The notes under the pieces were generated by a model that saw only the letters and a list, made by a program, of their open reading frames with translations, was not told the DNA's origin and did no database searches. Both the position numbers and the translations under genes were made by a program. From Microcoleus sp. FACHB-831 (GTDB lineage Bacteria; Cyanobacteriota; Cyanobacteriia; Cyanobacteriales; FACHB-T130): 64,000 nucleotides of DNA. The stretch lies in contig NZ_JACJON010000058.1 of assembly GCF_014695585.1 (NCBI RefSeq), positions 62,001 to 126,000 of the forward strand, read 5' to 3'. Shown piece after piece: positions 5,452 to 56,833 of the stretch (the stretch's first letter is position 1; each line of letters opens with the position of its first letter).

Positions 5452-5681
5452 TAAAATTACGGATTGCACAAGTTTCCTCGGTGTGGGAACGAGTTACATC
5501 GCAGGATTAGGGTGGTATTGAGTTAATAGTTAGCTATCTGGCAGATGAGTTGGTGCGTCGAGGTCATGATGTCACCTTATTTGCCTGTAGGGATTCTCAA
5601 ACTTTGGCTCAGTTAGAGCCAGTTTACCCGGTAGTGCGCTTAGCTCCATACAAAGCTGCTTATCAACAAGTCCTCGCTTGA
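5451..5681 (+). pseudogene. Truncated duplicate of the GT4 glycosyltransferase (N-terminal stump)
   Basis: In one frame directly overlapping the previous stop, the DNA encodes KLRIAQVSSVWERV, then a TAG (5511-5513), then GGIELIVSYLADELVRRGHD, then VTLFACRDSQTLAQLEPVY, ending at TGA 5679-5681. This aligns with residues 1 to ~75 of the upstream transferase. The expected start would be ATA (5451-5453), one base from ATG and overlapping the preceding TGA as in a translationally coupled pair. The rest of the gene is missing and an interspersed repeat begins ~12 bp later, so the truncation point coincides with the repeat. Confidence 0.82.
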
Positions 5682-5863: not shown

Positions 5864-7363
5864 CTACAATTTTGATGATAACGCCTTGCTCTTAGGCTCT
5901 ATATAGTCATCAAAGCCAATTAACTTTAAATGCTTTGAACCATCCTTACCAATCAGTTCTTTTGCTAATAAGTAACCAGCACAAGTCCAAGTTTGATTTC
6001 TTCTAGCTTCTCTGCCAATTAAATGTCCGGTATGCCCATCATAGTATTCTGGCCATTCATCTTTTTGCAAACGTTTTCCAGCAAGTTCAATGGCTGAACT
6101 TGCAAAGTTTAAATATTCCTGTTCGCCAACTTTTTGAGCTGCTGCTGCCCACATCCACATCAGAACAGGCCAGCTGCCACCATTATGATAAGACCAAGGA
6201 CTATTTTTTGGATCGCAGCCCGTGACAATTTTCCACTCTTGACCGTCTATAGCTGCATAACAGATTTTAAAGGGCATCTGTCCAAGAAGCTCTTTTTTGC
6301 GTTCTTTGATCAGCTTCATAATTTTTTCTGACATATCCTTGGTGGCTAGAGAAGATACAATTGCCATCAAGTTGCCTAGAGAAAAGAAACGGAAATCCAT
6401 TTGCGAAGGGCCGATATTACCAATTAGATAACCGCCATCTTCTGGTATCCAATCATCTAAATTAGCATAGGGAATGGAGTTAGCATATATATTGTACTTA
6501 TTGATAGCTGTTTCTCCATATTCCTCGACATTGTACTGATAGGTTTTATTCAATTCTTCCATATCCATCCAATATTCATCCCGCATATGGTTAGCGAGAT
6601 CGATTAATCGTTTCTTGATTTCTGGAATAAGTTCTTTATTGCTGTGATTTTTCCGATCTAGTAGCTCATCAGCAGCACGCAAGGCAGCATAAAATAGCAC
6701 TTGGATTTCTAAAGGATAACCATAGATACCCATCCGACGGTCAATCATACAAGCGCCATCGGGTACTAAGATAGTTGGCTCTCGATCGAAGCGATCGCTA
6801 AAGCAGAGTTCCAGAATTAACCTGATGCCTTCTTGGAAGTCAATTCGGTGGACTAAAGCAGTCTTTCCGGTTGCTTTCCAATACGCCCGCAACAGGATAA
6901 TCCACCAGAGGCTAGAATCAACAGGCGTGACTCTAGCGATCGCGTGTTGACCAAAATCAGGTTCCAGCTTTTCTTTCCCCTGCTTTTTAATAATTTTGAA
7001 GCTTGCAGGCATCAAAACTCGCCCGGTGTTTAAAAAAGTGCTTGACCTTTCTTGCTGATGCAATTCTAATGTTACTTCAAGAAAGTTTTTAACAATTTCT
7101 TTGCCCTTGATTAACTGTAATTTTCCATTAATAGTAATTTCAAAGTCACCTTTTATAAGAAACAGAAGTGCTACAGGAATAAAATCCCGAATAAAAACTT
7201 GATCATAATTGAGCATATCCTTACTAACTTTGGTACGCTCATTTTCTTTCCGATTTTTTTTAGCAGTATAGGCTGCTGGCGTGCCTACCAAACTTCCTTT
7301 ATAGGAAATTAGCGACTCAACAAGTATCCTCATTGCTTCTATTTCCAGTGCATTTTCTTCCAT
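5864..7363 (-). CDS. Neutral/alkaline invertase (glycoside hydrolase family 100)
   Basis: About 499 residues from the ATG at 7363; a TTG three codons upstream is possible but weaker. The enzyme hydrolyses sucrose to glucose and fructose in the cytoplasm at near-neutral pH. Recognisable blocks are LNYDQVFIRDFIPVAL near residue 50, RVTPVDSSLWW near 145-155, GCDPKNSPWSYHNGGSWPVL near 405 and HLIGREARRNQTW near 460. The Asp of VDSSLWW and the Glu of GREARRN correspond, as I recall, to the catalytic pair of cyanobacterial InvA. The fold is an (alpha/alpha)6 barrel and the length matches the family. It is transcribed away from the glucosidase-like gene at 7795, with ~430 bp between the two starts. 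It could be part of sucrose turnover during osmotic or dark metabolism. Confidence 0.92.
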   Translation of the reverse strand: MEENALEIEAMRILVESLISYKGSLVGTPAAYTAKKNRKENERTKVSKDMLNYDQVFIRDFIPVALLFLIKGDFEITINGKLQLIKGKEIVKNFLEVTLELHQQERSSTFLNTGRVLMPASFKIIKKQGKEKLEPDFGQHAIARVTPVDSSLWWIILLRAYWKATGKTALVHRIDFQEGIRLILELCFSDRFDREPTILVPDGACMIDRRMGIYGYPLEIQVLFYAALRAADELLDRKNHSNKELIPEIKKRLIDLANHMRDEYWMDMEELNKTYQYNVEEYGETAINKYNIYANSIPYANLDDWIPEDGGYLIGNIGPSQMDFRFFSLGNLMAIVSSLATKDMSEKIMKLIKERKKELLGQMPFKICYAAIDGQEWKIVTGCDPKNSPWSYHNGGSWPVLMWMWAAAAQKVGEQEYLNFASSAIELAGKRLQKDEWPEYYDGHTGHLIGREARRNQTWTCAGYLLAKELIGKDGSKHLKLIGFDDYIEPKSKALSSKL

Positions 7364-21239: not shown

Positions 21240-22904
21240 ATGATAGTTTCCCATTGCCAGACGACAGCTAAAAACCAGATGTATCTGCCCCAAATAGAGC
21301 AACCAGCAGAACTAATCGAGCAACTTTTGGCGATAGGGACAGCACTTTCGGGCAGTCAAGATTTAGGAGAATTACTAAATCTGATTTTATCTAAGAGTCG
21401 CGAGATTACTTGTAGCGATGCGGGAAGTGTTTATTTAATAGATCGAACTGAAGACACTCCCAAGTTGGTATTTAAAGTAGCACAGAATGATTCTCGATCG
21501 AGCGATTCCTTTCGAGAGTTCTGCGTGCCGTTAACTCCAAAAAGTTTGGCGGGGTACGTGGCGCTGACGGGTGAAAGCCTAAATTTGCCAGATGCTTATA
21601 ATTTACCTCCAGATGTTCCCTACCAGCTGGATCGCAGTTTTGACCGCAGTATTCCCTACCACACGCGCTCAGTGTTGGTGCTGCCAATGCAAGACGCTGA
21701 AGGAGAAATTATAGGGGTGCTTCAGCTGATCAATCGCAAGATTAATATTAACGCGGTTGTAACTCCGGAAAATGTGCGGGATGTTACTCAACCTTATTCG
21801 GCGTGGGAAGAATACGTTGTGCGAAGTCTTGCTTCTCAGGCGGCGATCTCTATTGAACGCAATCAATTACAAAAGAGTATTGAAAATCTCTTTGAGGGCT
21901 TTGTCAGAGCTTCTGTTCAGATTATTGAAGCGCGAGATCCCACGACATCGGGGCATTCTGAGCGAGTTGCAGACTTGGTGGTGCGTCTGGCTCTAGAAGC
22001 GAGTACAGTAACCACAGGGCCATTGCGGTTGATTTATTTTAGCGATCGCCAAATCCAAGAAATTCGTTATGCAGCACTGTTGCATGACTTTGGCAAAGTA
22101 AGTACACCAGAAGCTATTTTAGGCAAGCAGAAAAAACTTTATCCAGCCCAGCTGGAGGTGATTCGGAACCGCTTTGCTGTAGCGCAGCGCACCTTAGAAA
22201 TGGAATGCGCCCAGAGTAAGTTTAAATATTTAATTGAGCATCCCAGCCACCGCCACAATGATTCCGAAAACGTCTGTTCCCACTGCCAACAACTGCAACA
22301 ATTAGATAGCCAAGTTGAAGATGCGATCGCTAAACTCAATGAATATTGGCAGCTATTACTAGAGGCAAACGAACCGCATATTCTAGCCCAAGAGCTTCCA
22401 GAACGACTCAGAGAGTTGTCTGAATACACCTATCAAGATGTTGATGGTGAGATGAAGCCGCTGATGTCACCTCAAGAATTGTCTCAACTTATGGTGCCTA
22501 GAGGTAATTTGACAACCGCAGAGCGATCAATAATCGAAGCCCACGTCACCCACACCTACGAATTTCTCAAGCGAATTCCCTGGACAAAGCATCTAAAAAA
22601 TGTTCCCTTGATTGCTGCTTTGCATCACGAAAAACTCGATGGTACTGGCTATCCCCAAGCCTTGACACAGGCAGAAATTCCCATTCAAACCCAGATTTTG
22701 ACGATTGCAGATATTTACGATGCACTCACAGCAAGCGATCGCCCTTATAAACGTCGATTGCCTGTTGAAAACGCGATCGCCATTCTCAGAGCAGAAGCAG
22801 CTCAAAGCAAAATCAACACCGATCTAGTCACCCTGTTCGAGCAACGCCATGTTTTTGCTGCTTTAGGTCACACCCTCTCACTTGAAGCTCATTCAGCAGC
22901 TTAG
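21240..22904 (+). CDS. GAF and HD-GYP domain protein, candidate c-di-GMP phosphodiesterase
   Basis: A 554-residue cytoplasmic protein. Residues ~25-208 are a GAF sensor (ACSDAGSVYLIDR-like core, VLVLPMQDAEGEIIGVLQLINR). Residues ~218-510 are an HD-GYP domain: first His in SGHSERV (H239), HD pair in ALLHDFGKVS (H282-D283), second His in EAHVTHT (H435) and the signature HHEKLDGTGYP (462-472). HD-GYP domains hydrolyse c-di-GMP at a di- or tri-iron site. Between HD and GYP there is an extra ~100-residue insertion holding HPSHRH and CSHC (C346, C349), a candidate metal site. The ligand of the GAF domain is unknown. It stands alone with 515 bp upstream. Confidence 0.88.
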   Translation: MIVSHCQTTAKNQMYLPQIEQPAELIEQLLAIGTALSGSQDLGELLNLILSKSREITCSDAGSVYLIDRTEDTPKLVFKVAQNDSRSSDSFREFCVPLTPKSLAGYVALTGESLNLPDAYNLPPDVPYQLDRSFDRSIPYHTRSVLVLPMQDAEGEIIGVLQLINRKININAVVTPENVRDVTQPYSAWEEYVVRSLASQAAISIERNQLQKSIENLFEGFVRASVQIIEARDPTTSGHSERVADLVVRLALEASTVTTGPLRLIYFSDRQIQEIRYAALLHDFGKVSTPEAILGKQKKLYPAQLEVIRNRFAVAQRTLEMECAQSKFKYLIEHPSHRHNDSENVCSHCQQLQQLDSQVEDAIAKLNEYWQLLLEANEPHILAQELPERLRELSEYTYQDVDGEMKPLMSPQELSQLMVPRGNLTTAERSIIEAHVTHTYEFLKRIPWTKHLKNVPLIAALHHEKLDGTGYPQALTQAEIPIQTQILTIADIYDALTASDRPYKRRLPVENAIAILRAEAAQSKINTDLVTLFEQRHVFAALGHTLSLEAHSAA

Positions 22905-23036: not shown

Positions 23037-23087
23037 CTACAGACTAATAATAATTGATGACTTTGCAATTCTTATCTTTAACCCAAA

Positions 23088-23161
23088 TTTTCCCCACCTA
23101 TTCCCCAGCGTTTCCACAAAGCCGTTCAACTTTTTCCACAGGTTAAGAGAGGTTTTCCACA
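23088..23161. promoter_or_regulatory. Cluster of DnaA-box-like sequences
   Basis: Two perfect matches to the cyanobacterial DnaA box TTTTCCACA lie at 23132-23140 and 23153-23161, 21 bp apart and in the same orientation. A third, GTTTCCACA, is at 23110-23118 with one mismatch, and TTTTCCCCA is at 23088-23096 with one mismatch. A further TTCCCCA follows at ~23101. All point the same way within 74 bp. They lie in a ~540-bp gene-free region upstream of the DUF2811 gene. They could be part of an origin, a DnaA-titration site or a DnaA-regulated promoter. Confidence 0.6.
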
Positions 23162-23414
23162 GGGTTTAACGGTCGGATCGGGTCTTGCTGTTCTAGTGGG
23201 GATTTTTTTAAAGATACTGACTCGCCTGGGATGGACTGAGTTTTAGTAAAGATAAGTAACAAAAAGCGACCGAAGAAGCTGATTGTTTCGTGAATATTTT
23301 TTTTGCGTACAGGTGACTGTAACATTTCGCAGCATTGACAGGGTGGGGAAGGGAAGCCGACAATGATGCGACGGTCAGTTGTCCGTAAGCGTTGAAACTT
23401 TCCAACTCTTAGCT

Positions 23415-23447: not shown

Positions 23448-23672
23448 ATGAACGCAACAATCAGTATCCTGGCAGAAATCCCTGAAGAACTACACGAATC
23501 TCTCAAAAACTACCTAGAAACTCATCCTGATTGGGATCATGATCGCGTTTTTGCCGCAGCGCTGTCCCTATTCTTGCTGCAAAATGGTAATGGCAACAGC
23601 CCAGAAGCTTCGCAAAGTTATCGCAAAGCAGCACGGGTTTATCTGGAAACCCTTTTCCAGCATACGGTTTGA
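23448..23672 (+). CDS. DUF2811 family protein
   Basis: A 74-residue soluble protein: ISILAEIPEELHESLKNYLE, then a DWDHDRVFAAALSLFLLQNG-type core, ending in YRKAARVYLETLF. This is the cyanobacterial DUF2811 family, of unknown function; the predicted all-helical build resembles small DNA-binding or adaptor proteins, but nothing proves that. ATG 23448 is preceded by AAAGGAGTTCT, a near-consensus ribosome-binding site, which decides the start against an in-frame extension upstream. The promoter region upstream contains three heptamer repeats and the DnaA-box cluster. Confidence 0.85.
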   Translation: MNATISILAEIPEELHESLKNYLETHPDWDHDRVFAAALSLFLLQNGNGNSPEASQSYRKAARVYLETLFQHTV

Positions 23673-56760: not shown

Positions 56761-56833
56761 TGGAGGTTAGCGGACTCGAACCGCTGACATCCTGCTTGCA
56801 AAGCAGGCGCTCTACCAACTGAGCTAAACCCCC
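56761..56833 (-). tRNA. tRNA-Ala(UGC)
   Basis: The 73-nt reverse-strand sequence folds as a complete tRNA. It has a 7-bp acceptor stem with the G3-U70 wobble pair that is the alanine identity element, a D-loop with GGTAGAG, an anticodon stem CCTGC with loop TTTGCAA (anticodon TGC), a T-loop GGTTCGAGTCC and discriminator A73. CCA is not encoded. It is convergent with the Crp/Fnr gene. Confidence 0.97.

Follow-up and report, generated by a model that had tools for sequence, protein, structure and literature searches.

Clusters of DnaA boxes are also found away from replication origins. The datA and DARS sites of Escherichia coli are clusters of this kind lying outside oriC, and in Bacillus subtilis the sda promoter is regulated by DnaA through a box cluster upstream of a gene that codes for a small protein. 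Eight intergenic regions bound by DnaA are reported for B. subtilis in PMC7198777. Several cyanobacteria keep dnaA though they are able to replicate without DnaA; the same paper reports dnaA deletions to be viable in Synechocystis 6803, Nostoc 7120 and Synechococcus 7002, and calls the function of DnaA in such species unclear. At the oriC of Cyanothece 51142, TTTTCCACA boxes have been footprinted with the C-terminal domain of DnaA (PMC4674748). HLR1, the site of the redox regulator RpaB, is described as two (G/T)TTACA(T/A)(T/A) repeats placed 2 nt apart (PMC9241938), and its location upstream of the core promoter is the position tied to activation (PMC6331805).

Here we describe a DnaA-box array of Microcoleus sp. 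FACHB-831 that is linked to a gene encoding a small DUF2811 protein (PF10929). Like datA and DARS it is a non-oriC cluster of DnaA boxes, but it differs from them in being tied to one gene and its promoter. It shares with the sda promoter the placement of such a cluster upstream of a small-protein gene, and differs from it in that its geometry is conserved across cyanobacteria, it is accompanied by an HLR1-like site, and the gene that it precedes tracks dnaA. DUF2811/PF10929 was not found in the literature searched, which mostly excluded subscription papers, and the array is not described in titles and abstract openings on TTTTCCACA, on RpaB with DnaA or on cyanobacterial DnaA transcription; it could be in print elsewhere.

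The window, i.e. the whole stretch of 64,000 nucleotides analysed, is part of one contig (C58) of an assembly of 6.4 Mb in 85 contigs. A GAF/HD-GYP gene ending at 22904 is followed by the array, the DUF2811 gene, hemJ and pth. The nearest named locus is that of Trichocoleus sp. FACHB-40, whose DUF2811 protein is identical. The elements of the region are as follows:

23088..23096, + strand, DnaA-type box 1, TTTTCCCCA, kept in an alignment of 46 loci chosen from 81
23099..23107, + strand, DnaA-type box 2, TATTCCCCA, with 2 mismatches; several relatives read TATTCCACA
23110..23118, + strand, DnaA-type box 3, GTTTCCACA
23132..23140, + strand, DnaA box 4, TTTTCCACA, perfect
23153..23161, + strand, DnaA box 5, TTTTCCACA, perfect
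23197..23205, - strand, inverted weak box, AAATCCCCA, 44 bp past the start of box 5
23243..23260, - strand, HLR1-like candidate RpaB site, GTTACTTATCTTTACTAA, imperfect (14/16 positions)
23335..23364, + strand, core promoter, TTGACA-N18-GACAAT
23448..23672, + strand, DUF2811 gene (PF10929), 74 aa

The first-pass annotation had recognized four boxes, two perfect and two with one mismatch, all in one direction within 74 bp of a gene-free region with neither dnaA nor dnaN next door, and had held a chance origin to be unlikely. Each of these points stands: the four boxes are on the + strand, only short unsupported ORFs are listed between the HD-GYP gene and the ATG of DUF2811, and dnaA and dnaN are adjacent to each other on a different contig (C20). 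None of 150 simulated windows (order-3 Markov, 64 kb each) equalled the cluster of four boxes in 74 bp including two perfect ones, and one of the 150 had three boxes, so that the region holds several matches to the consensus beyond chance expectation. The cluster is nevertheless larger than had been claimed, as a fifth box with two mismatches completes the row. The box starts (23088, 23099, 23110, 23132 and 23153) define head-to-tail steps of 11, 11, 22 and 21 bp; as these correspond to one or two turns of DNA, the sites of the array face one way. The perfect box TTTTCCACA has 121 copies in the genome, against 44 for the same letters read backwards.

A search with the DUF2811 protein found 105 relatives, of which the best 80 named loci were kept; with L011 and L033 set aside for having too little upstream sequence, 78 named loci could be tested. 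With all sites at most one mismatch from TTTTCCACA or TTTTCCCCA accepted as boxes, 76 of the 78 have, in the 1 kb preceding DUF2811, three or more boxes of one orientation inside a span of 120 bp, and such an array occurs in none of 1432 other 1-kb strand-windows of the same loci. The two loci lacking it are from an Epithemia endosymbiont (L073) and a Gomphosphaeria MAG (L077). Box spacings in the DUF2811 arrays peak at 11, 21 and 22 bp. A second set, drawn from whole genomes, comprises 75 distinct upstream stretches, including the window and some organisms shared with the named loci. Here 57 of the 61 ordinary dnaA-positive stretches have at least three boxes and the other four have two; the boxes of the genus g5 arrays are weak. 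The 11 upstream regions of family f26, small-genome organisms which we take to be probably marine picocyanobacteria, carry at least three boxes in four cases, two in four and one in three, a lone box being near chance; an inverted box at +44/45 is present in six of the 11. Many f26 genomes (e.g. L151, L152 and L153) possess two or three diverged DUF2811 copies, and each of the copies examined (all three in G251, both in G264 and two of three in G175) has at least one box upstream.

As the named loci were fetched by means of DUF2811, the presence of this gene in them proves nothing, and the independent test is a blind search of 291 genomes with a strict three-box pattern, in which DUF2811 was not used as bait. 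The pattern gave 59 matches in 42 of the 291 genomes, compared with a single match overall for the pattern read backwards. Forty-seven of the 59, distributed over 41 of the 42 matched genomes, lie upstream of DUF2811 and in the same direction, at 231-575 bp from it where the distance was measured. The 12 other matches include two bipolar clusters beside dnaN (G129, G187), a tandem repeat (G103) and six gaps with three boxes spaced by 20-22 bp; the last three (G038, G197 and one of those in G117) were left unclassified. The remaining neighbors of DUF2811 are variable: among 81 loci, some of them truncated, hemJ is near in 18, HD-GYP in 15 and pth in 13, and no gene of the ten that flank DUF2811 in the window exceeds a count of 18. 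A second block of HD-GYP, DUF2811, hemJ and pth genes with its own array occurs in the same assembly (L168, contig C82). It may have arisen by duplication or come from contaminating DNA, for which this assembly is listed at 3.77 per cent, and in view of the latter possibility we left it out as evidence for paralogues.

Being dense, phased and in part perfect, the boxes could also be seen as a datA- or DARS-like site that sets the pool of free or active DnaA and lies beside DUF2811 by chance. In line with this, the spacer between the organism's own dnaA and dnaN (L085, 6786-6803) holds only two perfect boxes, starting at 6786 and 6795 and thus 9 bp apart. Yet nothing obliges a titration site to stay with a particular gene, whereas the blind search places the array beside DUF2811 in nearly every matched genome while other neighbors change, and beyond the array an HLR1-like site and a core promoter occupy conserved places. 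Some of the same genomes moreover offer a better datA-like candidate in the three-box gaps with 20-22 bp spacing. We accordingly regard pure titration as rather unlikely, although the array may have a titration role in addition to promoter control, or a minor role as an origin.

These three-box gaps represent a third type of cluster, with boxes 20-22 bp (mostly 21) apart that are all perfect except in L131. It was seen in L084 (positions 5469-5518 of this locus, from contig C13 of the same assembly), L131, L169, L170, L172, L173, L174 and L176. It follows a cation-efflux gene in five of these eight loci (the family was checked in L084 only) and is next to guaA in three. In L084, L170 and L176 the cluster occupies a gap between convergent genes; hence it is not a promoter element there and may be datA-like.

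Control of the DUF2811 promoter is better in keeping with what lies between the array and the gene. An alignment of 46 upstream regions, hand-chosen from 81, reveals as conserved elements the motif AATTCTTAT, which in the window sits just before the boxes (23068-23076) and is retained across many of the 46 loci, followed by the boxes, the inverted weak box, the HLR1-like site and the core promoter. Counted from where the last box begins, the best inverted match with up to two mismatches falls at 44-46 bp in at least 102 of the 143 distinct regions compared. HLR1-like scores of at least 13/16 are attained in 127 of 151 regions as against 23 of 151 mononucleotide shuffles, and the best such site is on the - strand at +90 to +92 in 71 of 143 regions, those of f26 not being among them. 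As in the HLR1/RpaB promoters described in PMC9241938 and PMC6331805, a pair of direct repeats resembling GTTACA and spaced by 10 bp is situated upstream of the core promoter; the DUF2811 site, a predicted one, differs from those described there in being joined to a DnaA-box array.

The -35 element lies 175 bp from box 5 in the window. Of 79 named loci, the window among them, 72 have a TTGACA-N16-19-nAnAAT promoter in the 450 bp before the gene and none has one on the opposite strand, and each base of TTGACA is present in 44-46 of the 46 aligned loci. TTGAC is found within the last 200 bp before the gene in only 51 of the 79 because the promoter often sits further up, which is the reason for the 450-bp limit. 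A generic promoter scan recovers the core promoter, with shuffles of the region yielding as many matches. The boxes thus stand in a conserved relation to both promoter and gene. Searching the window for RNA genes, we found no Rfam match above the gathering score except a tRNA (56761-56833), and an RNA gene at the site was discarded as a candidate.

The first-pass annotation had offered three options for the cluster: an origin, a DnaA reservoir, and a promoter control region of the DUF2811 gene. The last is the best supported, given the 41 of 42 genomes in the blind search and the occurrence of the HLR1-like site and promoter at typical places, and the main origin is disfavored. Bipolar clusters adjoin dnaN in eight of 12 dnaN-bearing loci (L171, L175, L179, L181, L190, L191, L193 and L195); among the other four, L194 has no cluster, the three boxes of L189 are scattered, and the sequence of L188 and L192 opens only shortly ahead of dnaN. 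Beside dnaA alone, the cluster is one-directional in L180 and bipolar in L186, and boxes are few or absent in L182-L185 and L187. Two boxes spaced by 9 bp are met repeatedly beside dnaN (L171, L175, L181, L190 and L195), and beside dnaA in L186.

Comparison with the oriC beside dnaN (PMC4674748 for the described case) brings out both kinship and difference. The box sequence and, in one genus, a shift of the consensus are common to both, and their 11/21/22-bp phasing is similar. The oriC clusters are, however, mostly bipolar, often contain the 9-bp pair and are located at dnaN or dnaA; the window's array is on a different contig from these genes and is one-directional but for one weak inverted box about 44 bp on, and the 9-bp spacing accounts for just one of 253 successive spacings in the named DUF2811 arrays. 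The phasing of the array resembles one arm of the dnaN-side oriC of genome G235, and the two may therefore share descent or a mode of assembly. This likeness, the one-directional layout of the dnaA-side cluster of L180, and the predicted oriC of Thermosynechococcus elongatus, which according to PMC4674748 is bordered by genes of unknown function, are the points that speak for the array as a chromosomal origin, main or secondary. Against them stand the bipolar clusters at dnaN, the near absence of the 9-bp pair, and the fact that DUF2811 copies at different places of one genome have their own boxes. The skew switch suggested in the first-pass annotation as a check is also not clearly seen at the site within the window, to which the examination of skew was confined in this genome of 85 contigs; this says little, as skew is a poor guide in cyanobacteria, where it is often irregular (PMC7198777). 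The GC skew of the complete genome G241, sampled as 20 stretches of 20 kb, is flat, and the origin could not be placed from it. The array is probably not the main oriC, and we consider an origin of either kind very unlikely as its explanation.

The link to DnaA, as opposed to some other protein, draws on the letters of the boxes and on the distribution of the gene. In two genomes (G235 and G079) the dnaN-side oriC has mostly TTATCCACA boxes and the DUF2811 array reads TTATCC(A/C)CA, so that array and oriC of the same host vary together in their consensus; because both genomes belong to one genus, this covariation counts as one event. Across 389 genomes of the order, dnaA and DUF2811 are both present in 325, both absent in 43, and found singly in 11 (dnaA) and 10 (DUF2811). 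Fisher's test for this co-occurrence gives p = 3.9e-37, a value that ignores relatedness, the independent losses being fewer than the genome counts. The 389-genome set overlaps the 291-genome sample, and its table was completed from positive lists and tallies. Within the window's class in the 291-genome sample of the phylum, 124 genomes have both genes, 13 neither, four DUF2811 only and none dnaA only; a match in G100, outside the class and below the family cut-off, was dropped.

Genera that include both states (f43 g120, f7 g35 and f6 g10) point to repeated loss. A control family, DUF3082, is kept in 26 of 28 genomes lacking dnaA, as compared with DUF2811 in six of the same 28. All 11 dnaA-positive genomes without DUF2811 are assemblies of at least 90 contigs. 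One group that departs from the pattern is f5 g182, where dnaA is present and DUF2811 is barely detected, at E ~1e-4, in G468, G495, G498, G501 and G507, and not in G480. The flanks of DUF3082 in 19 genomes devoid of both dnaA and DUF2811 (L222-L240) have no DUF2811 remnant and no three-box cluster, a weak negative since DUF3082 is near DUF2811 in 14 of 81 loci only. Promoters were examined in three of the 10 genomes that keep DUF2811 without dnaA: G048 has no box, G262 has one, and G177 (L149) has three, two of them weak.

Autoregulation is common among small DNA-binding proteins, and the boxes might then be merely DnaA-like, forming the operator of another DNA-binding protein such as DUF2811 itself, to whose gene the array is after all tied. 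An AF2 model of DUF2811 (pLDDT 75; 66 for the first model) has an extended N-terminus and helices at 13-25, 31-46 and 52-67, an arrangement that could be a ribbon-helix-helix. Foldseek with the model returned no match at E <=0.001, and a NikR chain (2wve_B) aligned to it over 3-50 with Z 4.2, not above background (VIA-align). Membership of the ribbon-helix-helix class finds no support at the sequence level: there is no RHH match in Pfam, and hhalign against one RHH_1 protein of the same genome was negative. The operator reading is further opposed by the letters of the array, which are those of the cyanobacterial DnaA box and differ jointly with the oriC boxes in one genus, and by G048 and G262, which retain DUF2811 without dnaA and have, respectively, lost the boxes or kept one. 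We regard this reading as highly improbable.

We consider it likely, on the strength of comparative sequence analysis, that the array has long served DUF2811 as a cis-regulatory element, under the control of DnaA and RpaB, and that the product of the gene acts in the DnaA pathway. DnaA would bind the five head-to-tail boxes, one or two helical turns apart, with its molecules facing one way, and the resulting filament would point at the promoter. The inverted box 44 bp on and the HLR1-like site for RpaB would complete the assembly, such that the two regulators jointly activate DUF2811 in cells with charged DnaA and ongoing photosynthesis; the small product would in turn act back in the DnaA pathway. 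Activation is favored over repression by the placement of the HLR1-like site upstream of the core promoter, and the tendency of DUF2811 to be missing together with dnaA suggests that the protein probably acts in that pathway.

The conserved array of a gene that is often missing along with dnaA provides a concrete target for DnaA function, and at the same time a hint as to the function of the unstudied DUF2811 family. The RpaB-type site offers a route by which light might act on the control of replication. More tentatively, it is quite possible that DUF2811 serves cyanobacteria as a dedicated partner or regulator of DnaA, and that its joint DnaA and RpaB promoter brings together the photosynthetic redox state and the charge of DnaA and thereby gates chromosome replication; where replication no longer needs DnaA, this promoter may be one of the main reasons why DnaA has been kept.
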